The notes under the pieces are model-generated. The model worked only from the letters and a program-made list of their open reading frames with translations. It did not search any database and was not told the origin of the DNA. From Nitrospirota bacterium (GTDB taxonomy: Bacteria; Nitrospinota_A; UBA7883): a stretch of DNA of 64,000 nt. The translations under genes were made by a program, and so were the position numbers. Positions 15,745 to 34,447 of the stretch are shown in pieces (the stretch's first letter is position 1; every line of letters begins with the position of its first letter). The DNA lies in contig JAJRZK010000020.1 in NCBI GenBank assembly GCA_024275315.1, forward strand, positions 1-64,000, given 5' to 3'.

Positions 15745-16386
15745 CTAGCCTCCCGCGGCGTCTTGCAGGAACTTGAGTAATAACTTTTCCTCCTCGACGC
15801 TCGGTTGGCTCATTTCCATTTCTTTCATATTGTTTTTCATTTTTCGCACAACTTGTGACCAATCGGATTTCGTGTGAAGAGATGGATCCGGCAAATCGTG
15901 GCATTGCGAGCAAACCCGCTCGAACGTCTTAAATTCCGGCGTGTCGGTGGAGGAGATGGTGGACTTGTCCAGAGTTTTCAGGCCGTGCTTTTGAAGATAG
16001 GCGATGACCCTCTTTTTCTCTGACGATGACATGGCCTTTACACGCCCTCGGCCCATCATTCCGCCACCGATACGGGACATTATCCGAGTTCGGGAATCCA
16101 TCCTGTTCACGAGCGTTTTCCAGTTTTCGGCGGAATTGCGTTGCGGGCTGGGCAGAGCGTGGCACTGCGAGCAGAATTTTGAGTAGGTTTTCGCCGCATC
16201 GGAGTTGGCCTCCGGCAGATTTTTCGGGTCGACCCCGGTCTTCGGCATGCGCCCCATCATGGAGCACATCTTTCCTTCGCCCATCATTCCGCCACCCATC
16301 ATGCGGCTTGCTTCAGCTCCAGTGGATAACAGTGTCGCCACAATAATTCCGATTGAAACCACCAACAATATTTCGCTTATACGCAT
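15745..16386 (-). CDS. Methionine-rich dihaem cytochrome c of the copper-efflux operon
   Basis: A 213-residue secreted protein: a signal peptide of about 26 residues ending GAEAS, then a methionine-rich stretch (RMMGGGMMGEGKMCSMMGRM, about 28-47) resembling copper/silver-binding sequences, and two c-type haem sites, CSQCH near 73 and CSQCH near 161. The two halves look like a duplicated about 85-residue cytochrome unit (each begins with F..CSQCH..P and ends in a helix with an E-K-K or E-E-K motif). A second Met pair GGGMMGRG lies between the halves. Its start overlaps the cusA stop by 10 nt, so it is the last gene of the efflux operon. Role inferred: periplasmic Cu-linked electron transfer. 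Confidence 0.85.
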   Translation of the reverse strand: MRISEILLVVSIGIIVATLLSTGAEASRMMGGGMMGEGKMCSMMGRMPKTGVDPKNLPEANSDAAKTYSKFCSQCHALPSPQRNSAENWKTLVNRMDSRTRIMSRIGGGMMGRGRVKAMSSSEKKRVIAYLQKHGLKTLDKSTISSTDTPEFKTFERVCSQCHDLPDPSLHTKSDWSQVVRKMKNNMKEMEMSQPSVEEEKLLLKFLQDAAGG

Positions 16387-19300
16387 GACGACATCCTTTC
16401 ACCGGTTTTTTTCACAAAGGAGTAAATTACCGGAATAACTATCAATGTAAGAATTGTAGCGGAAACCAGGCCTCCTATCATTGGCGCGACCATGCGTTGC
16501 ATGGGTCTCGATCCGACGTCTGACGTCCACATTATGGGTAAAAGCCCGAGGATAAGACAGCTTACCACCATTATCTTGGGGCGAACCCTCATTACCGCCC
16601 CGTCAATTATAGCTTCTACAAGGTCTTTTCGGCTTTTCATACGCCCTCCACTTCTTCTTTTCTCATAAGCAAGGTTCAGATAAAAAAGCATGACAACCCC
16701 AGTCTCCGCCGCAAGCCCGGCAAGCGCAATAAATCCGACGGAGACAGCCACGCTCAAGTTGTAACCGAGCCAGTGAACAAGCCATATCCCGCCTGTGACA
16801 CTGAAAGGAAGGCTGAGCATAATGATCAGCGTGTCGGTAAGATTTCTGAAGTTAAGGTAAAGCAACAGGAAAATGATCACCAGCGTTATTGGAACAATGA
16901 CTTTTAATTTCCTGTTCACATCCTCCATAAGCTCAAACTGGCCGCTCCATTCCATGTAATAGCCTGGAGGTAATGTGATTTCTCCAGTCTCGATGGCCTT
17001 GTCGATGACGGCCTGCGCGCGATTGACATATGTCCCGACGTCCAGCCCGGCCTCTATATCCACCGGCACGTTGGCGACAAGCAGGCCGTTTTCGCTCCTT
17101 ATCATCGGCGGCCCGTCCTGCAGATTAATCTTCGAGACGGCTCCCATGGGGATCAGCGCTCCGTTCGAAGCGGTGAGCAGAACTCGTTTGAGTTTTTCCG
17201 GATCGTCTCTCAACTCCCGGGGATAACGGATATTAACCGGAAAACGATACCTCCCCTCAACAATATGGGTTATGTTCCTGCCCCCGATGGCGAATTCTAT
17301 AACCGTCTGCGCGTCCTCCATGAGGATTCCATATCGCGCGAGTTCCGTACGGTCAAGGTTGATGTCAAGATAACGCCCTCCCATAACACGCTCCGCCGAC
17401 ACAACAAGAGCACCCGGAACCGAACCCAGAACCCTCTCCGTATCGATGGCGATCTTTTCCAGTTCAACAAGGTTTTCGCCCCTGATTTTAAGTCCCAACA
17501 ACCCTTTCATCCCGGTGGTAAGCATGCCGATGCGGGTTTCTATCGGCATCAGCCACCAGTTGGGCATCCCCGGTATGTTTACGACTCTGTTCATCTCCTC
17601 TTTTGTAAGCTCTTCGAACGTCACCTTTCGTAAAGGCGTTGTCTCCATATGATAATTTTTCAATATCGCTCCGGCTTTTTTATTCGAGTGTTGCGCAAGG
17701 TATCCGGACGCGTTCAGGTAGGAGATTAAATTAGAGGATACCGTTTCAACAAGCTTGTCGGCGAGCTCTCGCCTGGTTGAGAGAAGGCTGTTTCCTTCAA
17801 GCAACTCCTCCCTGATCCAGCTGTTGACACTCCATCGGCTTTTACGCTCGACCTGCGCGGAGGCTTCTTCCGCCGGGATGCCTTTAATAACGTTTCCGGT
17901 TTCTAATAGACGGATCATGGAAAGCGCCATGTTCGTGATGTAACCATCTTCGATAATCCGCTCTGGCCAATCCTCCTCCGGTTTGAGCGATATGTGGGTT
18001 TCCACCATGGAAAGCGGCGCGGGATCGGTGGGCGTATTTGCGCGCCCTATTTTGCCAAGAACGGTGTTCACTTCCGGGAACTGTTTGAGCAGGCGATCCT
18101 GAACCTGCAAAATTCTTGTAGCCTCCGCTACCGGCAGACCGGGAACAGTGGTAGGCATATACAGAATGTCTCCTTCCTTAAGCGGCGGCATAAACTCGCT
18201 GCCTAACTGGCGATACGGGATGTATGTAAACAGGAGGACGAGAGCGGCAAGCGCTATAACTGTCTTCCTGAACCTGAGCGCCAGACGGATGGCAGGCTCA
18301 TACATGGCGATAAGAAGCCGACTTGCGGGGTTTTTCGACTCTGGTGGAATATCGCCTTTGACAAACAGCCCTATGAGCGCAGGGATTAGCGTTATAGCGA
18401 ATATTGCCGACGCTCCCATCGCGAAAGTTTTTGTGAACGCCAACGGTTTGAAAAGCCTTCCAGCCTGATCCTGGAGAGCGAAAACCGGCAGAAACGATAC
18501 GGTGATTATAAGAAGCGAGAAAAAGAGTGCGGGCCCCACCTCCACACTGGCGTCAAGAACCGCTTTTGACCTGTCTTGCTTGGCTCCATCAGCTTCGGCC
18601 CTTTCAAGATGCTTATGCGTGTTCTCCACCATTACCACAGAGGCGTCCACCATGGCTCCAATGGCGATGGCGACGCCGCCCAAAGACATGATGTTGGCTC
18701 CAAGCCCCATTGATTTCATGATCATAAAGGACGCCAGAACGCCGAGTGGAAGAGTGATCGACGCCACCAGGGCGGAACGCGCGTGCCAGAGAAACAGCAC
18801 GGTGACTAAAGCGACTATGAGCGCCTCTTCGATAAGTTTGCTTTTCAGCGTTGCGATAGCTCTGTATATGAGGCCGGAACGATCGTAGGCGGATTTGATA
18901 AGGATTCCTTTTGGAAAACCTGGGGATATCTTTCTGATCTTTTCTTTCACACCGTTTATCACATCCAGCGCGTTCGCGCCGTATCGGGCGACCACGATAC
19001 CGGCCACCACTTCTCCTTTCCCGTCTTTTTCAGCGACACCGCGCCTGGTCACCGCTCCGATTTGAACCGTGGCCACGTCTTTTAGCAACGTCGGCGTCCC
19101 GTCCACCGTCGATTGGAGAACCACGTTCTCAATATCCTCTATGCCTTTTATGTATCCCCTGCCACGGACCATGAACTCGGCTCCGCCAAGCTCCATCACA
19201 TCACCCCCCACGTCGTTATTGCTTTTTCGGATAGCGCGGATAATCTTTTGGAGGGGAAGCCGGTAGAAAAGAAGCTTTTGCGGGTCGACGGTGACCTGGT

Positions 19301-19859
19301 ATTGCCTTGACGCCCCGCCGACAGCGGCCACCTCGGCCACACCGGGGACGCTCATGAGCTGATAGCGAATATACCAGTCCTGCAGGGCGCGCAATTCTCC
19401 CAGGTCGTACCGGTTTTCTGTGTCTTCAACAGTATAAACAAATATCCAGCCAAGACCCGTGGCGTCCGGGCCAAGGGTCGGTGTGACATCTTTCGGAAGG
19501 TCGGTTTGCGCCTGGTTCAGATATTCCATAACACGGCTTCTCGCCCAATAGATGTCTGTTCCATCCTCGAATATTATGTAGACGAAGGACTGGCCAAAAA
19601 AAGAGTAACCGCGCACGTCCTTGACTTTCGGAACCGCGAGCATCGACGTGGCCAGAGGATATGTGACCTGGTCCTCAATGGTCTGCGAGTCCCGCCCCAT
19701 CCATTTTGTGGAGATTATTACCTGAACATCGGAAAGGTCGGGGATCGCGTCCAGCGTTATACGGGATAGGGACCATGTTCCCATCAGAGCTACGATAACG
19801 GAGACGACTACGACAAATAGCCGGTTACGGAAGCACCACTCAATAATAAAACGGATCAT
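16377..19859 (-). CDS. cusA: CusA/CzcA family heavy-metal RND efflux pump
   Basis: An inner-membrane proton-driven pump moving metal from periplasm or cytosol into the CusB-TolC channel. Visible features are the RND N-terminus MIRFIIEWCFRNRLFVVV, the ..LDAIPDLSDVQVIISTKW segment, the TM4 motif GAMVDASVVMVENTHKHLE, which matches the Cu/Ag (HME-4) subclass, and a second half ending in GGIWLVHWLGYNLSVAV and GLAAETGVVMLF. At 1160 residues it is about 110 longer than E. coli CusA; most of the excess is a hydrophilic insert around residues 660-770 in the second periplasmic domain. It starts 4 nt after cusB. Copper/silver specificity is inferred from the motif and the cupredoxin and cytochrome neighbours. 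Confidence 0.92.
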   Translation of the reverse strand: MIRFIIEWCFRNRLFVVVVSVIVALMGTWSLSRITLDAIPDLSDVQVIISTKWMGRDSQTIEDQVTYPLATSMLAVPKVKDVRGYSFFGQSFVYIIFEDGTDIYWARSRVMEYLNQAQTDLPKDVTPTLGPDATGLGWIFVYTVEDTENRYDLGELRALQDWYIRYQLMSVPGVAEVAAVGGASRQYQVTVDPQKLLFYRLPLQKIIRAIRKSNNDVGGDVMELGGAEFMVRGRGYIKGIEDIENVVLQSTVDGTPTLLKDVATVQIGAVTRRGVAEKDGKGEVVAGIVVARYGANALDVINGVKEKIRKISPGFPKGILIKSAYDRSGLIYRAIATLKSKLIEEALIVALVTVLFLWHARSALVASITLPLGVLASFMIMKSMGLGANIMSLGGVAIAIGAMVDASVVMVENTHKHLERAEADGAKQDRSKAVLDASVEVGPALFFSLLIITVSFLPVFALQDQAGRLFKPLAFTKTFAMGASAIFAITLIPALIGLFVKGDIPPESKNPASRLLIAMYEPAIRLALRFRKTVIALAALVLLFTYIPYRQLGSEFMPPLKEGDILYMPTTVPGLPVAEATRILQVQDRLLKQFPEVNTVLGKIGRANTPTDPAPLSMVETHISLKPEEDWPERIIEDGYITNMALSMIRLLETGNVIKGIPAEEASAQVERKSRWSVNSWIREELLEGNSLLSTRRELADKLVETVSSNLISYLNASGYLAQHSNKKAGAILKNYHMETTPLRKVTFEELTKEEMNRVVNIPGMPNWWLMPIETRIGMLTTGMKGLLGLKIRGENLVELEKIAIDTERVLGSVPGALVVSAERVMGGRYLDINLDRTELARYGILMEDAQTVIEFAIGGRNITHIVEGRYRFPVNIRYPRELRDDPEKLKRVLLTASNGALIPMGAVSKINLQDGPPMIRSENGLLVANVPVDIEAGLDVGTYVNRAQAVIDKAIETGEITLPPGYYMEWSGQFELMEDVNRKLKVIVPITLVIIFLLLYLNFRNLTDTLIIMLSLPFSVTGGIWLVHWLGYNLSVAVSVGFIALAGLAAETGVVMLFYLNLAYEKRRSGGRMKSRKDLVEAIIDGAVMRVRPKIMVVSCLILGLLPIMWTSDVGSRPMQRMVAPMIGGLVSATILTLIVIPVIYSFVKKTGERMSSCV

Positions 19860-19863
19860 GATT

Positions 19864-21675
19864 TTATTTTTTATCCGCTTTACCCGTTAGAGAAAGAGGA
19901 AGTCCGCAGGTCGACATTTTTTGTCCCATATAGGGGTTCTCAACTGTTTCGCCGGGTTGCAGCCAGGAGTCCCCATTTTTTGTCATGGGACATGTAAAAG
20001 CGCTCAGTCTAACGCCTGAAGGTAAACCATACCTGGTGACAAGTGAGATGATCGGCTTGCTTATAGAAGCGAAATGTTTACGGGTTTGCGCAATATCCTC
20101 CGCTCCCTCCGCCATTCCCACGGCTCCTGTCCTGATCTTTGCCAACGCTTTTCTCACATCGCCATACGCTTTGTCCATGGCGGCGTCGACATCCTCGATC
20201 AAATGAACGGCCCCCCTTCTGGCCGGAGCAAAGTTGTCCAGGGCAAGCGATTTTCTGATGTTTTCATATGACTTGAGGATATGAGCGAGCGCCAACCCGA
20301 TGTCATCGGGGAGTTTTGTCATCTCTTTTCTTTTCGAAAGGGGAGCTATCTTTTTTAAAGCCCCCTGGAACTGCGCCTCTGCGGCGATCAGAAAATTCGC
20401 CGATGACACCACCCGCTGGCCCTCGTCAAGCCCGGCCAGAACTTCATGATATCTCTCCTCGCCATTTAAAAACGAAGTTTCCCTTTTCTCCCCTGTCCGG
20501 CCTGACAGATAAAGCCATTTTCTTCCAAGCTTTACTTCCACAGGGCGCATGGCTCCTTCCCCCTCCGACACCATGACGATCGCCCGCCGGCCGGTAAGGA
20601 TAACGGCGCTTTCCGGAACCGCAAGAACATCTTTCCCGGGGGCGCTGATCCGAACCCTTGCGAACATCCCGGGTTTCAGATACCCCTCCCTGTTTAGCGC
20701 TTCAAAACGAGCGCGAACTGTTCGAGAATCTGTCTGAACAACGGGGTCGATAAAGTCGACTTTCCCGGCGATGGCTTTTTCCTGGACGAATATCTCAACG
20801 GGTGTTCCGATCTTGATAAACGGTAATTCATTTTCGTAGATGTAACCGTATATCCATACTTTTGATAAATCGGCCAGTTTCAGAAGCGGTCGCCCCTCTT
20901 TGACATATTGCCCTTCGCTTACCATACGCTCGATCACCGTACCGGATACAGGAGAGTATATAGTCAGGCTTTCCAGCGCCTTTCCCTTTTTCCGTATTTT
21001 ATTTATCTCTTTATCGGTTATCCCCCAGCGGTTGAAGCGAGACTTCACTGTTTCAAGGAGAGACGCCAGCCTTCGCGCCCCGCCTCTTAGCAGCATCAGA
21101 TACTCTTCCTGGGTGGTCAAAAGCTCCGGATTATATATAGACAAAAGCGCCTGTCCCTTCTGAACGGTAGAGCCGGTGAAGTTCACGTAAAGAGCGTCGA
21201 TCCGGCTACGCCCGGGCGCCCATGAGGAAATGGTTTTCAATCTCCGTTCGTCCACTTCAACCCTGCCGGCTGTTTCTATCAGGCCTGTAAACGTCAGGCG
21301 TTTCGCTGTTGCAAAGCGAACACCCGCCTGCTGTATTTGTCGCGACGTGAAAAGAAGCGACCCTTCCTTTTTGATTTTTCCATTATTCTTTTTCATCTCC
21401 ACAAGCCGCATACTGCAGATCGGGCATGCGCCGGGTTTATCCCTCCTCACCTGCGGATGCATGGGGCACCAGTAAACCTTTTTATCAGCAAACGCCCTAT
21501 CTCCCGACAGCCCCATCCACCCCATAACTTTTGCGACGCCCGGATTATGCGTCCAGCGATACAAAATATCCTCCCGACACAGCCCTGGCCGCTGGCAGTA
21601 GATAAACGCTCCAAAACCTGAAACCAAAACGACAAGAGCCATTGCCACTAACAGTTTTACCTTCTTGCTTTTCAT
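19864..21675 (-). CDS. cusB: CusB-type periplasmic adaptor with metal-binding head and DUF3347 tail
   Basis: The membrane-fusion subunit joining CusA to the TolC channel. Residues 9-26 form one N-terminal anchor. A heavy-metal-binding domain follows, with YWCPMHP and ACPICSMRL (C70, H73, C84, C87). The central barrel-sandwich region includes GRVEVDERRLKTISSW and IYSPVSGTVIERMVSEGQYV. The last about 150 residues are a DUF3347-like helical domain ending in FTCPMTKNGDSWLQ and NPYMGQKMSTCG, also a predicted metal-binding element. So both ends of the adaptor can handle metal. The start overlaps the tolC-like stop by 4 nt (ATGA). Confidence 0.92.
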   Translation of the reverse strand: MKSKKVKLLVAMALVVLVSGFGAFIYCQRPGLCREDILYRWTHNPGVAKVMGWMGLSGDRAFADKKVYWCPMHPQVRRDKPGACPICSMRLVEMKKNNGKIKKEGSLLFTSRQIQQAGVRFATAKRLTFTGLIETAGRVEVDERRLKTISSWAPGRSRIDALYVNFTGSTVQKGQALLSIYNPELLTTQEEYLMLLRGGARRLASLLETVKSRFNRWGITDKEINKIRKKGKALESLTIYSPVSGTVIERMVSEGQYVKEGRPLLKLADLSKVWIYGYIYENELPFIKIGTPVEIFVQEKAIAGKVDFIDPVVQTDSRTVRARFEALNREGYLKPGMFARVRISAPGKDVLAVPESAVILTGRRAIVMVSEGEGAMRPVEVKLGRKWLYLSGRTGEKRETSFLNGEERYHEVLAGLDEGQRVVSSANFLIAAEAQFQGALKKIAPLSKRKEMTKLPDDIGLALAHILKSYENIRKSLALDNFAPARRGAVHLIEDVDAAMDKAYGDVRKALAKIRTGAVGMAEGAEDIAQTRKHFASISKPIISLVTRYGLPSGVRLSAFTCPMTKNGDSWLQPGETVENPYMGQKMSTCGLPLSLTGKADKK

Positions 21676-23024
21676 TGTCTCTTTCCGATAACTCTTGAAA
21701 GCGCCGCTTCTCCGGCTCTCAGATCAACGCGGATCCGCTCATATTGAAGCTTTGTATTCACCAGCGATCTTTCAGCTGTTATCAAGGTTAAAAAATCGTT
21801 TTTCCCGTCGCTGTACCCGGCTTTCGCGGCATCGAAATTTAATTTCGTTTCTGGGAGAAGAGCCTCATGGAAAAGTTTCTCCGCGTGGCGTGACTCATTT
21901 ATTTTTTGCCAGATTCGCTCCACCTGGAAACGGATACGGTCTTCCACCACTTTAAGCTCCCAATTCGCCCTGCCGAGTCTCGCGGACGCTATGTTCCTTT
22001 CTGCGCTCAGGCGGCCAAACCCGATAGGTATGTTTACCCCTATCCCGATAAACGGGCGAAGCTCATCTGTCATCCACGCCTTGTTATAAGAGCCTGTAAC
22101 AACAAAATCCGGATAGCTTTTGTACTCCGCCAGTTTGAGTGACGATCTTGCGGCTTCGATTCTCGAACGCGCCGCCCTGACAGAGGGGTTCTGCAAAAGC
22201 GCCTTTTCGAGCAATACATCCTTATCCGGAAAGGACGACACGGGGGGAAGCCCCGCCGGAATGGGCAGGGGTAGCCCCGCCGGGCGGCCCATAAGTGTGT
22301 TTAACCGGGCCGTGGCGACCCGAAGCTTTCTTTCAAGGGTGATGCCGCGATGCTCCACCTTTGCCAGATCAACATCGACCTGAACAACATCCTGCAGGTT
22401 TCCTTTGCCTGCCGAGTATCGTGATTCGGTTATGGTTTTGAAATTTTGCAAGAGGTTTGTGTTCTCTTCGTTTATTTCAATGGCGCGATGAGTGAAAAAA
22501 AGTTCCAGGTAAACGGTCTTGACCATCTGGACAAGTTCGAGCTTCGCGGAGCTGAAAGAGTTCAACGCCACCTCGGCCTCCGCTATGGCTTTGTAGCCTT
22601 TAAGGCCCAGCTTTCCCAGATATGGAATCGTTTGTCCAAGATCGATTTTGTATGCCAAGTCAGCCCTGTCGAAATTCGCGGTCAGGGGGAAAAATCCCAC
22701 GCCCAACATGGGATCGTCCAGTGTTGTGACCAGGGGATATTTTTCTACAGCTTCCCTTACCCTCTCTCTCATTGAAGCAAGACTTGGATTGTTATCGAGC
22801 GCTATCTGTGTGGCGGTTTCCATTTCAAGCGTTTTTTTTCCTTTTAAACTATCAGCGCTTTTATTTTCAAACCCGGCGTTGGAGTTCACAGCGGTTTTGA
22901 TTTTGACCTTATTCACAAGATGGTCAAAACGGCTGTTGGCCCTGGAAACAGCGCAACCGTGCGTGATTAAGGGGAAAAGAATCGACGCCAGGCAAAACCC
23001 GATTCCGGTCCTTGAAATTGTCAC
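21672..23024 (-). CDS. TolC-family outer-membrane efflux channel (CusC-like)
   Basis: The outer-membrane duct of the tripartite efflux pump. It has a 23-residue signal sequence followed by Cys (ITHGC), compatible with a lipidated CusC-like protein though the lipobox is not ideal. Two repeats of the outer-membrane efflux fold follow: first with QIALDNNPSLASMRERVREA near residue 75, second with LLQNPSVRAARSRIEAARSS near 280, and long coiled-coil helices between. The length of 450 residues is normal. It overlaps both neighbours by 4 nt, so expression is tightly coupled to the cupredoxin and the adaptor. Confidence 0.9.
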   Translation of the reverse strand: MTISRTGIGFCLASILFPLITHGCAVSRANSRFDHLVNKVKIKTAVNSNAGFENKSADSLKGKKTLEMETATQIALDNNPSLASMRERVREAVEKYPLVTTLDDPMLGVGFFPLTANFDRADLAYKIDLGQTIPYLGKLGLKGYKAIAEAEVALNSFSSAKLELVQMVKTVYLELFFTHRAIEINEENTNLLQNFKTITESRYSAGKGNLQDVVQVDVDLAKVEHRGITLERKLRVATARLNTLMGRPAGLPLPIPAGLPPVSSFPDKDVLLEKALLQNPSVRAARSRIEAARSSLKLAEYKSYPDFVVTGSYNKAWMTDELRPFIGIGVNIPIGFGRLSAERNIASARLGRANWELKVVEDRIRFQVERIWQKINESRHAEKLFHEALLPETKLNFDAAKAGYSDGKNDFLTLITAERSLVNTKLQYERIRVDLRAGEAALSRVIGKRQ

Positions 23025-23371
23025 TTTTTCTCCGTTACCCTCATCTCACCTTTCAGCATCTTCATGGGACAGGCAAACCCGATGACCCCGCTTTTCTCAG
23101 GCTGAATATTTATGACAACAGGTTTGTTCAGTGGCAATTCCCGGTTTATATTCAAATCAGGTATCAACACTTTTGTCGCGCAGGTTTTGTCAGTCTTTCT
23201 GATAAATACAAGCCTCGCCGCTTTTCCTTTCTCAACCGTAATCTTTGAGGGATTGAAACCATCCACATTTATCGTGATGGTTATATCTTTTGTTTTTGCA
23301 TACCCGGCGTGATGGTTAAACAACGCCGTAGACCACAACAGGCAAACGATCGATAGGATTACTCTTTTCAT
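23021..23371 (-). CDS. Cupredoxin-like periplasmic protein, first gene of the Cus operon
   Basis: A 116-residue secreted protein with a cupredoxin-like beta-sandwich (PF13473 type). After a signal peptide ending near HAGYA, the motif VDGFNPSKITVEKGKAARLVF opens the domain. Ligand candidates are the Cys in KTCATKVLIPDL, the Cys and Met in FACPMKMLKGEM, and no obvious His where blue copper proteins have one, so it may be a Cys/Met metal chaperone rather than a blue copper protein. The domain occurs alone or at the N-terminus of CopA-type ATPases. It heads the operon, 16 bp downstream of the palindromic operator at 23387. Confidence 0.82.
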   Translation of the reverse strand: MKRVILSIVCLLWSTALFNHHAGYAKTKDITITINVDGFNPSKITVEKGKAARLVFIRKTDKTCATKVLIPDLNINRELPLNKPVVINIQPEKSGVIGFACPMKMLKGEMRVTEKK

Positions 23372-23386: not shown

Positions 23387-23408
23387 GTATTCTACATATG
23401 TAGAATAC
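23387..23408. promoter_or_regulatory. 22-bp perfect palindrome, BlaI/CopY-type operator of the Cus operon
   Basis: Half-sites GTATTCTACAT and ATGTAGAATAC form an uninterrupted 22-bp palindrome centred between 23397 and 23398. Its core TACATATGTA fits the TACANNTGTA box bound by CopY/BlaI-family repressors. It lies 16 bp upstream of the cupredoxin start, where repression of the operon would be expected. The related site at 24868 precedes the repressor gene itself. Confidence 0.8.
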
Positions 23409-23422
23409 CATGTTAAAAAATT

Positions 23423-24436
23423 TTACCTTTTGCTTTTCGCCATGATCTCACACGCTTTCCTGCAGTTGTCTATATGGGCGGGGCAGGTTCTTTTCGGACC
23501 AATGCAAGAGGTCTGATTACATTTTTCCATTTGGCGTCCTGCGGCGTAAATAGGCGCGGTGAACACCGCCGCAAGCATGGATATGACAAACGCCGTACCA
23601 ATAATTATTCCTACGGGAGTCTTGTCACGTTTTCCCTGTCCCGGCTCCAAAAGTTCCTTGATCCTTTTTTCCACGAGCGTGGCTTTGCCCAGAGCTGAAA
23701 CTCCCACAGGAATTATTTCCCGATCCATACCTGTCATTTTAATAAGGGCCCGGGCCAGATCCACGGGTCGGCCCGATTCACTTGCGGCTCGCTCATCTGC
23801 GGCCAATTCTTTCCTTATGAAAAACAGATCCGCCAGATAACGCCCCAGTGGTATGACAAAAAACATATCCTTAATAAACGAAAGGATGAACAATTTTAAC
23901 GGATCTCTTTTCTCGGCATGGTGTAACTCATGAACGGCTACCGCCTCCAACTCTCCTTTTGAAAGTTTTTCGATCAGCCCGGTGGAAATATAGACTTTTG
24001 GTTTGACCAGGCCGAGCGTAAATGCGGAATTGAGCCTTTTATCCTCGAATGTGATTATTGGTATGCCATACAACCCGCTTAGCTTTTCCAATTCGTGGTA
24101 TCCTCCAGCGGGAGCGGCCCTGAGTGTATTCAAAAAACGCCCGGAGATGATCAGGTTTCTTGCCGCCGTGAAAACAGCCAGCGATAAGCCTGCGGTTATG
24201 ATCCCAAGACCTATCCACGGCATTATGGCCATGAACATTGTGGGGCTGACAAGGCACCACGAGAAAAGGGTTTTACAGCAGGCGAGAGCTGAGCCTGCCA
24301 ACGCTGTCAGCCCGAGCAGATTTGCAATACCGTAGTGCATGCTGGTGGCGATGAGAACAAACAGCAAGATAGCCATCAACGTCGCCCCGAGGAAACTGTG
24401 TAACGCTGATCGTCGCCAGAAGCCTTTTGTCGCCAT
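23423..24436 (-). CDS. M56 (BlaR1-like) membrane metalloprotease with Cys-rich C-terminal tail
   Basis: A 337-residue membrane protease of the BlaR1/MecR1 family, expected to inactivate its cognate BlaI repressor when a signal is sensed. The zinc motif HELHH is at 169-173 in AVAVHELHHAEKRDPLK and the third ligand lies in KELAADERA (about 210-216). Transmembrane segments lie near 13-33, 66-92, about 180-200 and 276-296. Instead of the penicillin-binding sensor of BlaR1 there is only a 40-residue outward tail with five cysteines (306, 311, 318, 325, 329), suggesting metal sensing. I chose ATG 24436 (AGG 4-6 nt upstream, 4 nt after the repressor stop) over an upstream start that would overlap the repressor by 53 nt. 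Confidence 0.82.
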   Translation of the reverse strand: MATKGFWRRSALHSFLGATLMAILLFVLIATSMHYGIANLLGLTALAGSALACCKTLFSWCLVSPTMFMAIMPWIGLGIITAGLSLAVFTAARNLIISGRFLNTLRAAPAGGYHELEKLSGLYGIPIITFEDKRLNSAFTLGLVKPKVYISTGLIEKLSKGELEAVAVHELHHAEKRDPLKLFILSFIKDMFFVIPLGRYLADLFFIRKELAADERAASESGRPVDLARALIKMTGMDREIIPVGVSALGKATLVEKRIKELLEPGQGKRDKTPVGIIIGTAFVISMLAAVFTAPIYAAGRQMEKCNQTSCIGPKRTCPAHIDNCRKACEIMAKSKR

Positions 24437-24440
24437 ACGC

Positions 24441-24857
24441 CTACCTAGGCCCTTCTTTCCTTTTCTTCTCAATGTATCTGGAAAGCTTGTCAATCTGATC
24501 AGGTTCCATTTCTTCGAGCGTGTCTACAAAAGAGGCTATGAGCGAAGCGCTGGAAAGATCCATGTAGTCCTTGAGCATTTTCCCTGCGACTTGCTTTGTG
24601 TAATCCTCTTTTGTAATAAACGGTCTGTAAACCAAAAAACCGTCTTCCTTTGATTTGCTGATAAGCCCTTTTCGCGAGAGCCTGTCTATAACGGTAAGTA
24701 CGGTTGTCAGTGCGACTTTTCTTGTCGTTTTGATTCCTCGCCAAACTTCTTTACCCGTGGCTTTTCCTATTTCCCAGAGGACTATCATTACCTCTTTTTC
24801 CAACTCCCCCAAAGGGCGGCTGACATTGATCGTTTTCGAACCGTGAATTGACTTCAT
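24441..24857 (-). CDS. BlaI/MecI/CopY-family transcriptional repressor
   Basis: A 138-residue winged-helix repressor. The N-terminal domain has LGELEKEVMIVLWEIGKATG and the recognition region TTRKVALTTVLTVIDRLSRKGLI, the family core that binds TACA/TGTA half-sites; the C-terminal helices (SLIASFVDTLEEMEPDQIDKL) mediate dimerisation. It lacks the CxCxxxxCxC metal motif of enterococcal CopY, so it cannot sense metal itself in that way and probably depends on the M56 protease encoded 4 nt downstream. A TACACATGTA box lies 11 bp upstream of its start (autoregulation) and a fuller palindrome precedes the Cus operon. Confidence 0.9.
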   Translation of the reverse strand: MKSIHGSKTINVSRPLGELEKEVMIVLWEIGKATGKEVWRGIKTTRKVALTTVLTVIDRLSRKGLISKSKEDGFLVYRPFITKEDYTKQVAGKMLKDYMDLSSASLIASFVDTLEEMEPDQIDKLSRYIEKKRKEGPR

Positions 24858-24867
24858 CCAGGTATTT

Positions 24868-24877
24868 TACACATGTA
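24868..24877. promoter_or_regulatory. CopY-type operator box upstream of the repressor gene
   Basis: TACACATGTA matches the TACANNTGTA consensus exactly. It shares the right arm TGTAGAAT with the palindrome at 23387 and sits 11 bp before the repressor ATG, consistent with autorepression. Confidence 0.72.
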
Positions 24878-24964
24878 GAATCATCTAGTCAAATTCAAAG
24901 TTATGGGCCAAGTGTTGGCCGCCGAGTACTCAAGCGGCCAGCCCTATCCCAGCCAAAAGCAGGA

Positions 24965-25257: not shown

Positions 25258-25698
25258 TTAATTTGCTCCCCACTTTCCGAGGCGCATACGGAACAGGGGG
25301 CGTTTTTCGGATATTTTTTTCGGCCATGTATTCCATAAGGATGCGGCCACTACGAGCCCCAGTCCTCCGAACATAGCCGGGTCGGATTCAAGTATGAACT
25401 TGGAAAACATCACGGACACCGCAGCAGCAGCGCCCATGACCAAAGGACCGTAGCCATGCCTGCTTTGGGCCCTATACGCAAGGGGAAGCACGGCAAGGGT
25501 GAGAAAAAACAATGTTAGCGGGGCAAGATAAGGGGTATAGTTTATGAACCCTACACCAAAAGACCCCAACAACCCTGCGTAAGCGGGCCAGCATGCGGGA
25601 CATGTCAGTTTAGGCAATATGGCGACACCAATCGCCGGAGCCATCGACAGACCTCGCTTGAAAACACCTGTTATCTTGTAACCATCAATATTCATCAT
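25258..25698 (-). CDS. MerC-like mercury uptake membrane protein
   Basis: A 146-residue protein with four predicted membrane helices. The first helix carries the CxxC pair in LPKLTCPACWPAYAGLLGS (C33, C36), placed as in MerC/MerT proteins that pass Hg(II) from periplasm to cytosol. The C-terminus is basic. It differs clearly from the shorter MerC at 33392, so two separate mercury-type permeases are encoded. Its first ATG shares one base with the merR stop (TGATG), so the two are translationally coupled. Substrate assignment rests on the CxxC helix and the MerR/thioredoxin context. Confidence 0.8.
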   Translation of the reverse strand: MMNIDGYKITGVFKRGLSMAPAIGVAILPKLTCPACWPAYAGLLGSFGVGFINYTPYLAPLTLFFLTLAVLPLAYRAQSRHGYGPLVMGAAAAVSVMFSKFILESDPAMFGGLGLVVAASLWNTWPKKISEKRPLFRMRLGKWGAN

Positions 25699-26126
25699 CA
25701 GTCCCTCTGTTTTTCAAAAGCGTCCAGAATCGGGCATTCGCTTGTCGGGCCGCTTCCGACACATATGGACGCAAGCTCGGTCAGGGCTTTTTTTATATTT
25801 TCCAATTCACCGATCTTCGCCTCCACGTCATTTATCTTGTCCATGGCCTTTTTTCTTACGTCGGCGCATGTTGTCGCCGGATCTATACGCAGATTCAAAA
25901 GCTCCGATATTTCTTTCAGCGAAAAGCCCAGCTCCTTTGCGTTTTTTATAAACTTTATGCGCCCTATAACCTCCTGTGGATAATGACGGTATCCTGCCTC
26001 TTTTCCTTGCGGCTGGTCAATCAGCCTTTTGCGCTCGTAGAAACGGATCGTCTCCACCCCCACCCCGGCCTGTTTGGCCACCTGTCCGATAGTCAGCGGT
26101 TTTATACCCTTCATCGCTCCCCCCAT
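25698..26126 (-). CDS. merR: MerR-family Hg(II)-type activator
   Basis: A 142-residue regulator. The N-terminal helix-turn-helix reads LTIGQVAKQAGVGVETIRFYERKRLI; a dimerisation helix follows. The three mercury-sensing cysteines of classical MerR are all present: C87 in TTCADV, and C122 and C131 separated by exactly eight residues. It therefore should sense Hg(II) rather than Zn, Cu or redox. Unusually, it lies inside the operon it presumably controls, joined to the NHL gene by a TAATG overlap. A second in-frame ATG at 26114 follows a GGGGGGAG ribosome site and may be the real start. Its likely target promoter is at 28546-28577. Confidence 0.92.
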   Translation of the reverse strand: MGGAMKGIKPLTIGQVAKQAGVGVETIRFYERKRLIDQPQGKEAGYRHYPQEVIGRIKFIKNAKELGFSLKEISELLNLRIDPATTCADVRKKAMDKINDVEAKIGELENIKKALTELASICVGSGPTSECPILDAFEKQRD

Positions 26127-27091
26127 TATTTTCCCGGTTCCACGTATCGCAGTGTAAGTATGCGGTCATGGGCGGTGTCCACGGCATAGATGGAGCCGTT
26201 TTTGCCAACAGCTATTTTCGTGGGCGTGTGCAGGGCAGTATCTTCTTTCATCTTCCACGCGGCCAGAAATCCATCATCACCGGAAAGGGCCACCACTCTA
26301 TGGTTCGCGCTGTCCGCCACATAAATCCGGCCTTTTGAATCCATCGCCACCCCGGAAGGAACCTTGAACCATCCGTCCCATGCTCCGGGCGCGCCGAGCC
26401 CGAAAGGCCCCCCCCATTTCGTCCTGTATACGCCCCGGACGTCGAATTTCTGGATACGGTTGTTATAGGCGTCGGCGATGTAAACGCTTCCATCATTGGC
26501 TACGAAAGCGTCGGTGGGATAGTGGAGCGCGCCGCTTTTCACCCTGCCGGACGCGCCGACCTGGGAAATGAACGCGCCGTCCAGCCTGAACTTCTCCACA
26601 CGTTTGTTATAGAAGTCCGCCACGTAGATGACGTCCCGTTTGCGGTCTATATGAATGCCAGTCGCGACGGTGAACTCGCCCGGGCCCTTGCCGCTTTTGC
26701 CCCACTGCCTAAGATAAACCCCTTCTGGTGAAAACTTCTGGATGCGGTCCTGGTCGTAATCGCTGACATACACGGCGCCTGCGCCATCGATCGCCACACC
26801 GACCGGTTTGGAAAACTCTCCTTCACCGTTCCCCGGTTTTCCCCATTCAAGGATGTAGTCCCCCTCCGCAGTGAACTTCTGTATTCTCGCATTTCTCACA
26901 TCGGCGATGTAAATATCGCCTCCCGTGTTGATGGCGATTCCCATGGGTTCGTTGAACTGGCCCGGACCGGCGCCGGATTCGCCCCACTGGTTTACAAGCT
27001 CGATTCTACCGGCCGCCCCCCATGGAACGACCGATATTGCAGCAAGAGTGGCAAAAAGGGCCGCCATGAAAAACGCGATTTTCAATTTCAT
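26126..27091 (-). CDS. Secreted NHL-repeat beta-propeller protein
   Basis: A 321-residue periplasmic protein: a signal peptide (about 1-26, ending near AAGRI) followed by six NHL repeats of about 45 residues, each with GVAID..G.VYVSD..ND/RIQKF and a WG spacer (for example GEFSKPVGVAIDGAGAVYVSD). This makes a six-bladed propeller, usually a scaffold for protein or ligand binding. It has no cysteines in the mature part, so direct mercury thiolate binding is unlikely. It lies between the HMA protein and merR in a tight leftward operon; no such partner is known from standard mer operons. Confidence 0.88.
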   Translation of the reverse strand: MKLKIAFFMAALFATLAAISVVPWGAAGRIELVNQWGESGAGPGQFNEPMGIAINTGGDIYIADVRNARIQKFTAEGDYILEWGKPGNGEGEFSKPVGVAIDGAGAVYVSDYDQDRIQKFSPEGVYLRQWGKSGKGPGEFTVATGIHIDRKRDVIYVADFYNKRVEKFRLDGAFISQVGASGRVKSGALHYPTDAFVANDGSVYIADAYNNRIQKFDVRGVYRTKWGGPFGLGAPGAWDGWFKVPSGVAMDSKGRIYVADSANHRVVALSGDDGFLAAWKMKEDTALHTPTKIAVGKNGSIYAVDTAHDRILTLRYVEPGK

Positions 27092-27103
27092 TGGAACCCT
27101 CTT

Positions 27104-27640
27104 TTAGTTGTTTTCAGCAAAACTCAAAGGCTCCAGCAGCATCGATCCCTCCGGACCCTCTTTAGCTTTTGTCTTGATCGCCATTGTTTTTCCGATCAAG
27201 GTCTCCGGATCGGCGGGCAGGGCCAAAATAGATGTAACGGGAAAACTCTGACCAGTGTCATCGGGATGGAACAAATATTTCCCCCCACTCTTTTCCAGTC
27301 GGCCCACCAGCTCATACGTGGTTTCGCGCGGCGTGTACCCGGCGTCGTACACAATCTGGTGAAGTTCATCAATCGTCAACAACGGCTTGCCCTTTATGAA
27401 AATGATCTCGACCACGCCTTCCTTCATTTTCATATCATATGACGCCACACTCCCGGAACGCCGGAAAAAACGCTCCAAGCCATAGGCGCAAAAGTAGCAC
27501 GCAAGACCGTCCGCCCGGATATACGCCTTCTGGCTCCCCTTCAGCGACGGGGCGTTCTGGACAATGTCCTTACCCCACACTGTCGATGTCGAGATCGCCG
27601 CTGTCAATAGGATCGCTATCAGAATCGTTCTTTTCCTCAT
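27104..27640 (-). CDS. Periplasmic heavy-metal-associated (HMA-like) protein
   Basis: A 178-residue secreted protein. After a signal peptide (about 1-23) a ferredoxin-like HMA domain shows GLACYFCAYGLERFF (CxxC metal site with an aromatic insert) and IDELHQIVYDAGYTP, the usual end of the domain. About 70 further residues (YELVGRLEKSGGKYLFHP...) form an unassigned beta-rich extension, possibly OB-like. It resembles periplasmic MerP-type metal acceptors but is larger. The start ATG 27640 is preceded by GGGAG at 8 nt. It is the second gene of the operon, 12 nt after the outer-membrane barrel gene. Confidence 0.82.
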   Translation of the reverse strand: MRKRTILIAILLTAAISTSTVWGKDIVQNAPSLKGSQKAYIRADGLACYFCAYGLERFFRRSGSVASYDMKMKEGVVEIIFIKGKPLLTIDELHQIVYDAGYTPRETTYELVGRLEKSGGKYLFHPDDTGQSFPVTSILALPADPETLIGKTMAIKTKAKEGPEGSMLLEPLSFAENN

Positions 27641-27652
27641 CGTTGACACTCC

Positions 27653-28498
27653 CTAATATCGTAGTTCCAACACGAATTTGAATGTAATGTCTTTCGGTTT
27701 CTGGACGCCGTTCAACTCCTGGTAGACAGGTATCTGAACCCCGGTCCGTATCATTGTCCTGTTGTTGGGGGAAATCAGAATTTCCGGAGATATGAACAGA
27801 AAATCACCGCCGGAATCCAGGTTATCCACACCGTTTGCTTTCGCGCGCCGCTCGTTCATGTAATTGAACTCGAGAAATAATACGGTATCCGTATCTTCAA
27901 TACCACCGAGTTGCGGGCGAAGGCCAACCGCAAAATCGGCGAAAAACAGGTCGCCCGATTTTGTGTTGTCGTCCTCGACATCGAATCGGTAACGGGCATC
28001 AAAGACGTAATACCATTTGATGCTTTCCATCCCGTAGGCGATCCCCCCTGCTATGGTTGGTTTATTCCGCTCCACACTTTTATCGCCCACCGGAGCGGTG
28101 ACCCCCAGTCGAATAGCGCTTGAATATTTCGCCCCGAGTGTATCCCTGTCCCAAAAACGCCATTGGGAAAAAATATCCGGGTTGTCAATTCCGCTGGCCG
28201 CACTTTGTCCCATGCCATCCTCAAAGTGTTCCTCTCTTGAGAAAAGAACCCCAAACCCCAGCGCAAAGTCACGGCTGAGTCCGTACGTGAATTCCAGTTC
28301 GGATTCCGTACGCCTTTCACCACCATGACGGCTGTGAACAAGAGAGGTGTGCAGGTCAAAGGCTCCTTTACCTGGCGCTTCCGGGGCCATCATGAACAGG
28401 GGAGCGTGAGCGAGGGCGGCGCCGTTCCATGAAATCACTGGAACCACGAGTAACAACAACGTAAGCTTCTCTAAATTTTTCTGAAGCATGATTTTCAT
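27653..28498 (-). CDS. Outer-membrane beta-barrel protein, first gene of the MerR operon
   Basis: A 281-residue protein with a long N-terminal signal sequence (cleavage near ALAHA) and alternating amphipathic strands throughout, ending in an aromatic residue (FKFVLELRY), the usual recognition signal for barrel assembly. Motifs such as LEFTYGLSRDFALGFGVLFSREE and AIRLGVTAPVGDKS are like those of copper-associated or phenol-pathway (MetA-like) barrels. There is no metal motif apart from the N-terminal HAPLFMMAP. I chose ATG 28498 with GAGG upstream, not the start 10 codons earlier. Position right after a mer-type promoter suggests a metal-induced porin or channel. Confidence 0.8.
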   Translation of the reverse strand: MKIMLQKNLEKLTLLLLVVPVISWNGAALAHAPLFMMAPEAPGKGAFDLHTSLVHSRHGGERRTESELEFTYGLSRDFALGFGVLFSREEHFEDGMGQSAASGIDNPDIFSQWRFWDRDTLGAKYSSAIRLGVTAPVGDKSVERNKPTIAGGIAYGMESIKWYYVFDARYRFDVEDDNTKSGDLFFADFAVGLRPQLGGIEDTDTVLFLEFNYMNERRAKANGVDNLDSGGDFLFISPEILISPNNRTMIRTGVQIPVYQELNGVQKPKDITFKFVLELRY

Positions 28499-28545
28499 AA
28501 CAAATTCCTCAGACAAACTCGAAATCATATGTTTCCTTTATCTAA

Positions 28546-28577
28546 AACATAAACCCCGTACCATACTACGGAGTCAA
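28546..28577 (-). promoter_or_regulatory. MerR-type promoter/operator with long spacer
   Basis: On the minus strand, TTGACT (-35, 28577-28572) is followed by the dyad CCGTA-GTATGG-TACGG (28571-28556) and TATGTT (-10, 28551-28546). The -35 to -10 spacer is 20 bp, instead of the optimal 17, and is filled by the dyad, exactly the architecture MerR proteins activate by twisting DNA. The -35 and left arm are identical to the classical Tn501 mer operator (TTGACTCCGTA). It lies about 48 bp before the first gene of the operon. Confidence 0.85.
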
Positions 28578-28685
28578 TGGATAATTTACGTTTACGGAAA
28601 ATAACGCTTCGTGAACCTGTGTAGAGAGAGTGGAAATTTTTGACTGACTCCCGATCGAGCGTGAATTGATCCGGCGGAAAAATGA

Positions 28686-28733
28686 TTGACAACAGGCCGG
28701 CCATGGATAATATTTCGTTATATGGCGAACTAT
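28686..28733 (+). promoter_or_regulatory. arsR promoter with overlapping ArsR-like dyad
   Basis: A perfect -35 TTGACA (28686-28691) is followed after 16 bp by TAATAT. Overlapping the -10 and start region is the dyad ATATTTCG-N8-CGAACTAT (28710-28733; 7 of 8 bases symmetric), of the kind bound by arsenic-responsive ArsR repressors. The arrangement predicts autorepression released by As(III). Confidence 0.7.
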
Positions 28734-28744
28734 AGGAGATAATA

Positions 28745-29098
28745 TTGTTCGACTTTCTTACAATTGCAAAAGCATTGGCGGATGAGAGCAGAATCAGAGC
28801 GTTGCTGGCGTTGCGCGATGGTGAGTTGTGCGTGTGCGATATTATCGAGCTTCTCGATCTCGCTCCTTCCACCGTTTCCAAGCATCTCTCGATTCTCCGG
28901 CAGGCGCGCCTCGTTGAAACGAGAAAAGACGGCCGTTGGATATATTACCGCCTGCCGGGTGATAAAGCTCCCCACCAGGTTCAAGAGTCGATCAGATGGG
29001 TTTGCGATTCACTGTCCAAAGATTTAACGGCCAAAAAAGACGCCATAAAAATAAAGCGAATTGTCAGGAGTCATCTGAAAAACTCATGTCAAATATAA
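28745..29098 (+). CDS. arsR: ArsR-family arsenite-responsive repressor
   Basis: A 117-residue winged-helix repressor. The arsenite site is ELCVCDIIELL with C29 and C31 at the start of the recognition-helix unit, the classic type 1 ArsR arrangement; the recognition helix is LAPSTVSKHLSILRQARLVETRKDGRWIYYRL (first and last parts shown across residues 39-70). The start is TTG, supported by AGGAG six nt upstream and by the fact that the protein begins exactly where ArsR homologs do. It is transcribed away from the MerR operon and 114 bp ahead of acr3. It should release its own promoter when As(III) or Sb(III) binds. Confidence 0.92.
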   Translation: MFDFLTIAKALADESRIRALLALRDGELCVCDIIELLDLAPSTVSKHLSILRQARLVETRKDGRWIYYRLPGDKAPHQVQESIRWVCDSLSKDLTAKKDAIKIKRIVRSHLKNSCQI

Positions 29099-29212
29099 GC
29101 AACAATTCCAAATTCCGGTCCTTTGCACCGGCAACTCCGCCAGATCCCGGATGGCGGATTATAAAATATCCGTCGGGGGGGATGTAATCGTAGTTGTTAA
29201 AGGAGAGAGATT

Positions 29213-30313
29213 GTGACAGGGCGATGTGGAGCGGACGTTAAGGATATATCTGGAGCGGAGCTGGGATTTTTCGAGCGTTGGCTCACTTTGTGGGTTTCCA
29301 TCAGTATCGCGGCCGGTGTTTTACTCGGGCAGATGTTTCCCTCGCCAATTCACGCGCTTGGGCGAATGGAAATAGCCCGTGTAAACATCCCTGTCGGAAT
29401 CCTCATCTGGGTGATGATTATCCCCATGCTTCTTAAAATAGATCTTCACGCCATTCATGAGGTAAAACGACACTGGAAAGGAATCGGCGTCACACTTTTC
29501 GTGAACTGGGCTGTAAAGCCGTTTTCCATGGCGGTGTTGGGATGGATATTTATCCGTTACCTGTTTGCGCCGTATCTGCCTCCGGATCAAATAGACAGCT
29601 ACATAGCCGGCCTGATTATTCTGGCCGCGGCGCCATGCACAGCGATGGTGTTCGTATGGAGCCATTTGGCCAAAGGAGAGCCGCTCTTCACGTTAAGCCA
29701 GGTGGCGTTAAACGACGTTATCATGGTTTTCGCTTTCGCTCCCATTGTCGGCCTGCTGTTGGGGCTGTCCTCGATTACCGTTCCATGGGATACGCTGTTG
29801 CTCTCGGTGGCGCTTTATATCGTCGTCCCCCTGATCATAGCAAATTTATGGCGCAGATCAGCGCTGGGACATAAGCACAAATACGCCCATCTTACGCGGA
29901 TTATAAAGCTGTCGCACCCGTGGTCTCTGGGGGCGTTGCTGGCCACACTAACGCTGCTGTTCGGTTTTCAGGCGGAGTCAATAATAAGCCAGCCAGCAGT
30001 GATCGCCATGCTGGCTGTCCCTATCCTGATCCAGGTCTATTTCAACTCGGGACTCGCGTATCTTTTTAATCGCCGGCTCGGTGTCGCGCATTGCGCGGCC
30101 GGGCCATCAGCGCTGATCGGGGCCAGCAATTTTTTTGAGTTGGCGGTGGCGACTGCCATCGGCCTGTTCGGATTCGAATCGGGCGCCGCGCTGGCCACGG
30201 TGGTGGGTGTTCTTATAGAGGTCCCCGTGATGCTTTCGGTCGTAAAAATCGTTAATTCCAGTCGCAGGTGGTACGAATCCGGACCGGCGTTTGCGCCGAA
30301 GCTGCTTGAATAA
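29213..30313 (+). CDS. acr3: Acr3-family arsenite efflux permease
   Basis: A 366-residue ten-helix permease that exports As(III) using the membrane potential. The diagnostic segment around the catalytic cysteine reads LAAAPCTAMVFVWSHL near residue 140; other Acr3 blocks are IPVGILIWVMIIPMLLKID, VNWAVKPFSMA and GPSALIGASNFFELAVATAI. The GTG start has AAAGGAGAG upstream. A divergent, non-Acr3 permease converges on it from the right. No arsC gene is adjacent, so arsenate reduction would have to be encoded elsewhere; the LMW phosphatase-fold protein at 45026 is not clearly arsenate reductase. Confidence 0.95.
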   Translation: MTGRCGADVKDISGAELGFFERWLTLWVSISIAAGVLLGQMFPSPIHALGRMEIARVNIPVGILIWVMIIPMLLKIDLHAIHEVKRHWKGIGVTLFVNWAVKPFSMAVLGWIFIRYLFAPYLPPDQIDSYIAGLIILAAAPCTAMVFVWSHLAKGEPLFTLSQVALNDVIMVFAFAPIVGLLLGLSSITVPWDTLLLSVALYIVVPLIIANLWRRSALGHKHKYAHLTRIIKLSHPWSLGALLATLTLLFGFQAESIISQPAVIAMLAVPILIQVYFNSGLAYLFNRRLGVAHCAAGPSALIGASNFFELAVATAIGLFGFESGAALATVVGVLIEVPVMLSVVKIVNSSRRWYESGPAFAPKLLE

Positions 30314-30438
30314 AACCGTTCGTGAAATGTAAGGAAAGAACGTGACCGGAAAGCCGCGGCGCCACTCGATCGTGATATATCGGCCGATCAACTCGAGCTT
30401 TCAGCCAAAGGCTGGAGCTGTGGCGTTTCAAGGATTAA

Positions 30439-31509
30439 CTATACGGTTTTTGCCTTAAGCTTTTCCATCATATTCCTCCACATCGATCTAATCATAAATA
30501 TCAACAGTAGAGCGGCGGAAGCGAGATTTATATAGTCTGGAAACAGTTCGGCGGCGGCGCCTGTCACCGCTTGCGCGTCAACAGCGAGCGTGGCGTACAC
30601 GGCGTTAATGGCGTATCCGGCGGCAAGGGCGCTGACCGCTATCGCTGTAAGGTAAATTATCAGCGACCTTACGCCCAGCGAGTTGTAGAGCACAGCCATA
30701 CTGCTTGCGTTAGTGGCGGGGCCTGCAAGCAGAAATACAAGCGCCGCGCCGGGGTTTAACCCCTTGAGCACCAAAGCGGCCGCGACAGGTGTGCTGGCGG
30801 TGGCGCACACGTACAAAGGTATACCTGCCATCAGCATCACAACCATGGACACGAACGTGTTCTGCGAAAAGCCTGTCAGAAATGTGTCAGGTATTAACAC
30901 TCCTATCAGGCCTGCGACCAGAAAGCCGAGAGCCAACCAGCCCGCCAGATCGTTCATCAGCTCGTTAAAAGCAAAATCCAGGATTCCATGAATCTTTCCC
31001 GTTTTCTTTGGAACTTCTTCCGTGCAATGGTCGTCGCATCCACAGGCATCGCTTTTCTTTAACCCGGCGTCGCTGCTCTGTACGGCGCCAGCCTCCTCTC
31101 GTCCGAAAATATTCTCCCCCATTCCAGCCACGAACGCCGTGAAAAACGCCGCGACTGGCCGGAAAACGGTAACCACCGGATCCATCAGGGCGTAGGTGAT
31201 GGCGATAGAATCCACGCCCGACTCCGGTGTGGATATGAGAAACGCGCTCGTGGCGCCTTTGCTTGCGCCATGTTTGCGGAGCGCCATCGCCGCAGGCACA
31301 ACTCCACATGAGCATAACGGCAACGGTATGCCGGCAAGCGACGCATATAATATCGATCGAACGTTACGTGGCTTAAGATACTTCGTTACTTTTTCCACCG
31401 GAAGATATATGTGCAACACTCCCCCGATCACAAAACCGGCAAGTATATAGAAGGCGGATTCCCTCACTATCCCCCAGGCCCCCACTGCGATCTCCAGGAT
31501 AATGTCCAT
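30439..31509 (-). CDS. SO_0444/ArsP-type permease (PF03773)
   Basis: A 356-residue permease with about nine membrane helices. The signature IPLPLCSCGVVPAAMALRKHG near residue 59 carries the CxC cysteines of the ArsP/SO_0444 group, followed by STPESGVDS; the second half has TASTPVAAALVLKG and AGPATNASSM. A central cytosolic loop is Cys/His/acid-rich (DACGCDDHC, about 153-161). Members export trivalent organoarsenicals (ArsP) or Cu/Zn (SO_0444 type); the loop favours the latter, but the neighbouring acr3 keeps arsenicals possible. It is 317 bp downstream of merA on the same strand, so it may have its own promoter. Confidence 0.85.
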   Translation of the reverse strand: MDIILEIAVGAWGIVRESAFYILAGFVIGGVLHIYLPVEKVTKYLKPRNVRSILYASLAGIPLPLCSCGVVPAAMALRKHGASKGATSAFLISTPESGVDSIAITYALMDPVVTVFRPVAAFFTAFVAGMGENIFGREEAGAVQSSDAGLKKSDACGCDDHCTEEVPKKTGKIHGILDFAFNELMNDLAGWLALGFLVAGLIGVLIPDTFLTGFSQNTFVSMVVMLMAGIPLYVCATASTPVAAALVLKGLNPGAALVFLLAGPATNASSMAVLYNSLGVRSLIIYLTAIAVSALAAGYAINAVYATLAVDAQAVTGAAAELFPDYINLASAALLLIFMIRSMWRNMMEKLKAKTV

Positions 31510-31826
31510 ATGCTCCCTTCAAAACCCTTTATATACGGCTTAAGGTATCATTAAATGGCCCGGATCATTTGTGTGAATATCTATACATGAAAACGAGCGA
31601 ACCGGCGGAACAGCCGTCTTGCCATTTTCAGTGACATTTCCCGCCAGGAAAACAGGTTGCCACTTTTAATCCACTTTCATCGTACCAGCACGAAGCCGCT
31701 GGCGCGGTACAATATTGTTGTGAATAGTTTCGGTGAGTTTTCTATTAGAAATCCCCGCCTTGCATAATCGCTGACATCGGGGCTCCGTATCCTGCGTGTT
31801 TCACAAGTATTCTCTTTTTTCGCATA
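31510..31826. other. Intergenic region between permease and merA (317 bp)
   Basis: No gene longer than 20 codons can be supported. Two tiny minus-strand frames are present, a GTG-started 19-codon one near 31750-31807 and an 18-codon ATG one near 31585-31640; neither has a clear ribosome site. The permease promoter is probably near its left end, but no consensus boxes stand out. Confidence 0.4.
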
Positions 31827-33378: not shown

Positions 33379-33391
33379 GATGTCTCCCGGC

Positions 33392-34383: not shown

Positions 34384-34410
34384 CTCAATCTCCATACCTA
34401 GTTGTTATCC

Positions 34411-34431: not shown

Positions 34432-34447
34432 CGCCAAGCAAAAATAA

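Follow-up and report, generated by a model that had tools for sequence, protein, structure and literature searches.

A BlaI-family repressor and a BlaR1-like M56 protease, encoded beside a Cus-type efflux unit in a Nitrospirota bacterium (GenBank assembly GCA_024275315.1, contig JAJRZK010000020.1; the analysed stretch of 64,000 nucleotides is hereafter called the window), probably constitute a receptor–repressor switch for Cu(I)/Ag(I), in which cysteines of the protease would act as the sensor and proteolysis of the repressor as the signal. Repressor–protease systems of the BlaR1/MecR1–BlaI kind are known for the detection of beta-lactams such as penicillin, and, judging from its genes and sites, the window pair appears to work like BlaR1/BlaI with another sensor, its regulon being supported and its sensing mechanism inferred. 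The genes, the two-site regulon, the conserved cysteines, the protease motif and the pump type are established at the level of sequence; the topology, metal binding, protease activation, direction of the signal, BlaI cleavage and Cu(I)/Ag(I) export are deduced, with no experimental data.

Results

Gene order at the locus

All genes of the locus lie on the minus strand. The genes for the BlaI/Penicillinase_R repressor (24441-24857, 138 aa; PF03965, E 8e-26) and the M56 protease (23423-24436, 337 aa, with HELHH...E and without a penicillin-binding domain; Pfam PF05569, E 3e-11) are located directly upstream of those for a cupredoxin-like secreted protein (23021-23371, by Pfam), a TolC/CusC-type outer-membrane efflux protein (OEP; 21672-23024), a CusB-type membrane fusion protein with a heavy-metal-binding domain (HMBD) and DUF3347 (19864-21675), a CusA-type RND pump in which the Met triad is present (16377-19859) and, as the final gene of the pump unit, a c-type cytochrome (15745-16386). 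The adjacency of the repressor and protease genes to a cupredoxin–TolC–CusB–CusA–cytochrome operon, noticed in a first-pass annotation of the window, is thus upheld by Pfam-level gene assignments. The first possible start of the long M56 reading frame, a TTG, falls within blaI, and the ATG at 24436, which agrees with the starts of relatives, is the likely start codon. The whole 2.9-Mb genome encodes a single BlaI and a single M56 protein. The surrounding metal island (25258-34786) carries MerA, a MerT/MerP-like fusion, MerR-type and ArsR-type regulators, an ACR3 arsenite exporter and an SO_0444-type Cu/Zn efflux permease. At residues 635-752 the window pump contains an insertion of about 118 residues, against about 6 at the corresponding place of E. 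coli CusA, and three other loci (L138, L122 and L071) encode pumps of comparable length (1137-1156 aa).

Two operators in the whole genome

The same annotation had pointed to boxes in front of both units, and these, in their extended palindromic form, proved to be restricted genome-wide to the two promoters. The core TACANNTGTA is found at 23393-23402 and 24868-24877, that is, twice in the window against an expected 0.23, and has 12 copies in the whole genome, while a search for the 16-base palindrome TTCTACNNNNGTAGAA that tolerated a single mismatch gave only two sites in all 2.9 Mb (23390-23405 and 24865-24880), on which ground chance occurrence of the boxes was rejected. Operator 1, ATTTTACACATGTAGAAT on the plus strand (24864-24881), overlaps the -10 element of the blaI promoter (TTGACT-17-TAAAAT, 24864-24892, minus strand), and its position is conserved in relatives; operator 2, the perfect 18-bp palindrome ATTCTACATATGTAGAAT (23389-23406), overlaps the -10 element of the pump-unit promoter (TTAACA-16-TAGAAT, 23389-23416, minus strand). 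Among sigma-70-like promoters in the region these two rank best, and an operator over the -10 element occupies a classical repression position. Judged from the DNA alone, two operator sites genome-wide, one BlaI and one M56 would together make a closed regulon, and we consider the predicted wiring of the pair to the pump unit well supported. The blaI ATG lies only 6 nt past the -10 element (24857-24864), with similar spacing in L007, so the blaI transcript may be leaderless or nearly so.

The palindrome TTCTAC..GTAGAA also directly precedes a BlaI gene in L085, a locus without a match to any metal reference, and is therefore read as an operator of the BlaI family, not as a metal box.

A repressor without cysteines

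The window BlaI meets the Penicillinase_R winged-helix test (PF03965) and matches MecI and BlaI structures by sequence; against the NCBIfam CopY/TcrY model TIGR02698 it scores 53 bits, below the cut-off of 121.95. As had been proposed, it lacks the CopY metal motif (a C-terminal CXC), because it contains no cysteine at all, and CopY-type direct metal sensing by BlaI was rejected for that reason. BlaI is cleaved between N101 and F102 (PMC9834060). In an alignment, Phe110 of the window protein falls on the Phe in the P1' position of the BlaI/MecI cut, and this Phe is kept across the family BlaI proteins except in two relatives (Leu and Ile).

A short M56 protease with cysteines in loop and tail

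The protease meets the M56 gluzincin test (PF05569 over the cut-off, HExxH...E present); its HELHH motif (codons 169-173, 23918-23932, minus strand) contributes H169, E170 and H173, which, like the third zinc ligand E210, are invariant in 17 M56 proteins. Pfam detects no transpeptidase (penicillin-binding) domain in it, the protein stops about 40 residues past its last helix, and it reaches only 21 bits against NCBIfam blaR1_generic (cut-off 400); beta-lactam sensing by this protein was rejected because there is no sensor domain. In the place of the antibiotic sensor there is, as the earlier reading had it, a Cys-rich tail of approximately 40-44 residues with five cysteines past the last hydrophobic helix (codons 299-337, 23426-23542, minus strand). 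That reading missed a second conserved cysteine site, the CX6C loop CC-KTLFSW-C between the first two hydrophobic helices (codons 53-61, 24254-24280, minus strand), which is the equivalent of BlaR1 EL1. All 17 proteins share, without exception, four cysteines, one in the loop (C61) and three in the tail (C306, C311 and C329). The two main groups have CKTxFSWC or CQSLxxxC as their loop sequence, and the tail is CX4C...CX3C in most members, being also His- and Met-rich in many relatives; three relatives lack the first helix along with most of the loop and retain a single loop Cys.

Provided that its protease domain is cytoplasmic, as that of BlaR1 is, loop and tail would both be outside. The AF2 model of the protein (mean pLDDT 81.5) has BlaR1 structures as its best PDB matches; the loop and tail regions are modelled with only low to moderate confidence (pLDDT 43-70), and a contact between them is not demonstrated by the model. 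The Phe at the autocleavage position of BlaR1 is absent from the window M56 and its close kin. The end of the last helix (residues 293-300, 23537-23560) reads PIYAAG, similarly in relatives, and slightly resembles a signal-peptidase site. In BlaR1, the sensor is shed by signal peptidase just past the last helix (PMC9834060), and by analogy the Cys tail of the window protein might be shed as well.

Conservation across two phyla

The family set comprises 17 M56 loci, the window included, from Nitrospirota and a second phylum, the other proteins being 26-58% identical to the window M56. The two closest relatives (57-58%), from Nitrospirae bacterium isolates Dive96_bin1.228 and HyVt-426, are each encoded before OEP–CusB–CusA genes, and they alone matched a scan of genome contigs with the Cys-loop peptide pattern. 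Profile searches of the second phylum yielded 14 more M56 proteins in 12 genomes, with two copies in two genomes. In the genomes G604 and G402 of this phylum there are two paralogous M56 metal units per genome (L120-L123), one from each of the subgroups of the family. A CusA pump follows in 14 of the 15 loci with a readable downstream region, and a CopA-type ATPase with Met-rich proteins in the remaining one. The search suggested with the first-pass annotation, for BlaI–M56 pairs without a penicillin-binding domain beside Cus genes, thus finds such pairs in further genera as well as in a second phylum. The system is present in 3 of 24 examined genomes of the window's phylum, which indicates a patchy distribution.

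With at most one mismatch, TTCTAC-N4/5-GTAGAA occurs before blaI in 15 of 16 loci and after the M56 gene in 15 of 17 (16 of 17 when a box directly before the L120 cupredoxin gene is counted); random stretches of equal length from the same loci match under the same rule in 2.3% and 1.5%, respectively, true sites included. The operator spacer is 4 in Nitrospirota, L120 and L122, and 5 in the other family loci.

In a sample across the domain, 55 of 385 genomes encode an M56 protein over the cut-off. CusA was found within about 9 kb of 3 of 20 examined short M56 proteins (at most 400 aa) and of none of 20 long ones, so that the metal link goes with short proteins in which a large sensor domain is absent. 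Shortness alone does not prove a metal sensor, since no metal neighbour was recognised for many short M56 proteins.

Sensor residues and pump residues

E. coli CusA uses M573, M623 and M672, and the window pump has equivalents of all three. In the alignment, Met occupies all three positions in 13 of 13 complete family pumps (the window and 12 others). Plasmids of Shewanella, Salmonella (IncC), Glaciecola and Pseudoalteromonas carry BlaI–M56–TolC–MFP–RND–HupE–DUF6488 units, where the M56 loop reads WHHxxxFxFxSWH, the tail HHxxE...H with no Cys, and the pump H,V,E. His-rich loops with His in the tail accompany S,Y,H pumps in L152-L154, a His/Asp-rich tail accompanies a D,S,D pump in L053, and L135 and L162 have other residues at the sensor and pump positions; M56 proteins beside non-MMM RND pumps thus mostly have His-rich or His/Asp-rich segments. 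At least three tail cysteines are found in all 14 loci with MMM pumps, compared to none or one in 10 loci with other pumps. L071 combines an M,M,M pump with an M56 tail containing CLCAC, although the tree groups it with non-MMM proteins, and apparently represents a second origin of the Cys tail and Met pump.

That the sensor residues of M56 track the pump triad is suggested by these alignments; however, the tree requires no more than about two evolutionary changes and has several weak deep branches, so the match is no proof. An alignment-based search for the His type in another phylum returned mostly weak matches of HtpX-like length, plus four further real BlaI–M56–RND loci. On Bacillota plasmids, short M56 proteins with CC-x-x-H loops lie within or beside copper/arsenic clusters.

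Five gammaproteobacterial plasmid units, with M56 identity as low as 30%, share the 21-bp palindrome AAACCGATTNCCTATCGGTTT before blaI (L014:7082-7102, L015:7094-7114, L016:2571-2591, L017:7178-7198 and L018:7070-7090), which is likely an operator, quite unlike TACANNTGTA. L014 is the conjugative Salmonella enterica IncC plasmid pYULZMPS10, from pork, and carries a BlaI–M56–RND unit of the metal type.

Discussion

In the mechanism that we favour, a BlaI dimer would, at rest, sit on both operators over the -10 regions and keep the blaI–M56 operon and the pump unit low. The CX6C loop and the short Cys-rich tail would be exposed on the outer side of the cytoplasmic membrane, at the positions that EL1 and the beta-lactam sensor hold in BlaR1. 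Excess periplasmic metal would be bound by the cysteines of both, probably bridging them, and its binding would shift the cytoplasmic zinc-protease domain to an active state; the activated protease would then cut BlaI just before Phe110, freeing both promoters and allowing the Cus-type pump to export the metal. EL1, which in BlaR1 connects helices alpha2 and alpha3, is docked into the extracellular sensor domain, and signalling was proposed to begin with displacement of this loop (PMC9834060). Cysteines at the same two positions suggest, as an inference, either that a metal bridges loop and tail or that it drives a rearrangement of the one against the other.

The idea that the genes merely happen to be neighbours, BlaI–M56 not regulating the pump at all, has nothing in its favour beyond the absence of an experiment and is hardly credible in view of a two-site regulon in 2.9 Mb that is conserved across two phyla. 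It is also improbable, to a lesser degree, that BlaI controls the pump while M56 is a constitutive or envelope-stress protease and the signal arrives through another factor, such as the cupredoxin or a ligand of BlaI. BlaI-family repressors can indeed bind DNA without a protease partner, as is established for CopY, and metal genes are lacking beside many short M56 proteins; yet the window BlaI has neither Cys nor the CopY motif, and the M56 cysteines are retained at 26-58% identity, the ligand type of M56 varying, moreover, with the type of pump.

A more serious, albeit still unlikely, possibility accepts the wiring and changes the ligand to another thiophilic metal, Hg(II) or As(III), or to the redox state sensed as a periplasmic disulfide, with Cu/Ag export being part of a wider response. 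MerA, MerT/P-like, MerR-type and ACR3 arsenite genes are indeed nearby in the window, and Cys pairs can form disulfides too. However, the only two operators of the genome serve blaI–M56 and the Cus unit, not the mer/ars genes, the pump has the CusA Met triad, the conserved tail is His- and Met-rich in many relatives, and one relative is paired with a CopA-type ATPase.

Compared with known systems, the pair assumed here to sense Cu(I)/Ag(I) shares with staphylococcal BlaR1/BlaI and MecR1/MecI the repressor family, the M56 HExxH...E signature, adjacent genes, operators at both transcription units, an extracellular loop with a C-terminal extracellular element, and the Phe at the repressor cleavage site. 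Unlike BlaR1/MecR1, its protease has a tail of about 40 residues rich in Cys and loop cysteines but no penicillin-binding domain, and its target is a Cus-type pump and not a beta-lactamase or PBP2a. Gram-positive CopY/CopR have the winged-helix family, the TACANNTGTA core operator and a copper export target in common with it, whereas the window BlaI has no CXC (zero Cys) and has a partner protease, and the TTC/GAA flanks of the window operator depart from RNYKACANNYGTMRNY (PMC7253601). As in E. coli CusRS/CusCFBA, there is a CusCBA-type pump with a Met triad and, by inference, periplasmic Cu/Ag sensing; control is by a repressor and a protease instead of a histidine kinase and a response regulator, and a cupredoxin and a cytochrome are present instead of CusF. 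The BlaI–M56–TolC–MFP–CusA/CzcA–HupE–DUF6488 plasmid units resemble the window in the repressor–protease–tripartite pump order and in possible loop and tail ligands but differ in having His instead of Cys, H/V/E instead of the Met triad, and AAACCGATTNCCTATCGGTTT before blaI. We found no description of a metal-linked M56–BlaI circuit in the open-access literature, where work in subscription journals could be missed, and no dedicated Pfam or NCBIfam family for metal-linked M56. The first-pass annotation had spoken of a distinct metal-sensing circuit; those of its parts that can be read from sequence are supported by the comparison with relatives, but the system is better called a variant of BlaR1/BlaI than a wholly separate circuit.

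It is an evenly balanced question whether BlaR1-like proteases are, more broadly, a widespread family of extracytoplasmic metal receptors that signal by repressor proteolysis, with loop and tail ligands (Cys for Cu/Ag, His/Asp for divalent metals) exchanged along with the selectivity residues of the pump, and beta-lactam receptors as one branch. In any case, a blaR1 or blaI annotation next to metal genes is not necessarily a matter of beta-lactams. Among antibiotic-resistance genes, a review includes a 'blaR1' that lies beside nickel/cobalt genes of a nickel-resistant Shewanella (PMC11253441); the Shewanella plasmids examined here carry pump-linked M56 genes, without it being established that they belong to that strain. 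Likewise, the BlaI/M56 annotations on pYULZMPS10 should not be taken as beta-lactam resistance. If the proposed mechanism is true, periplasmic metal would be sensed without a two-component system, through a membrane receptor that cuts a repressor, and the BlaR1 scaffold would carry exchangeable sensors; these small receptors (270-340 aa) would then be suited to studying a point that is unsettled even for BlaR1, namely how an outside signal is transferred to the protease.
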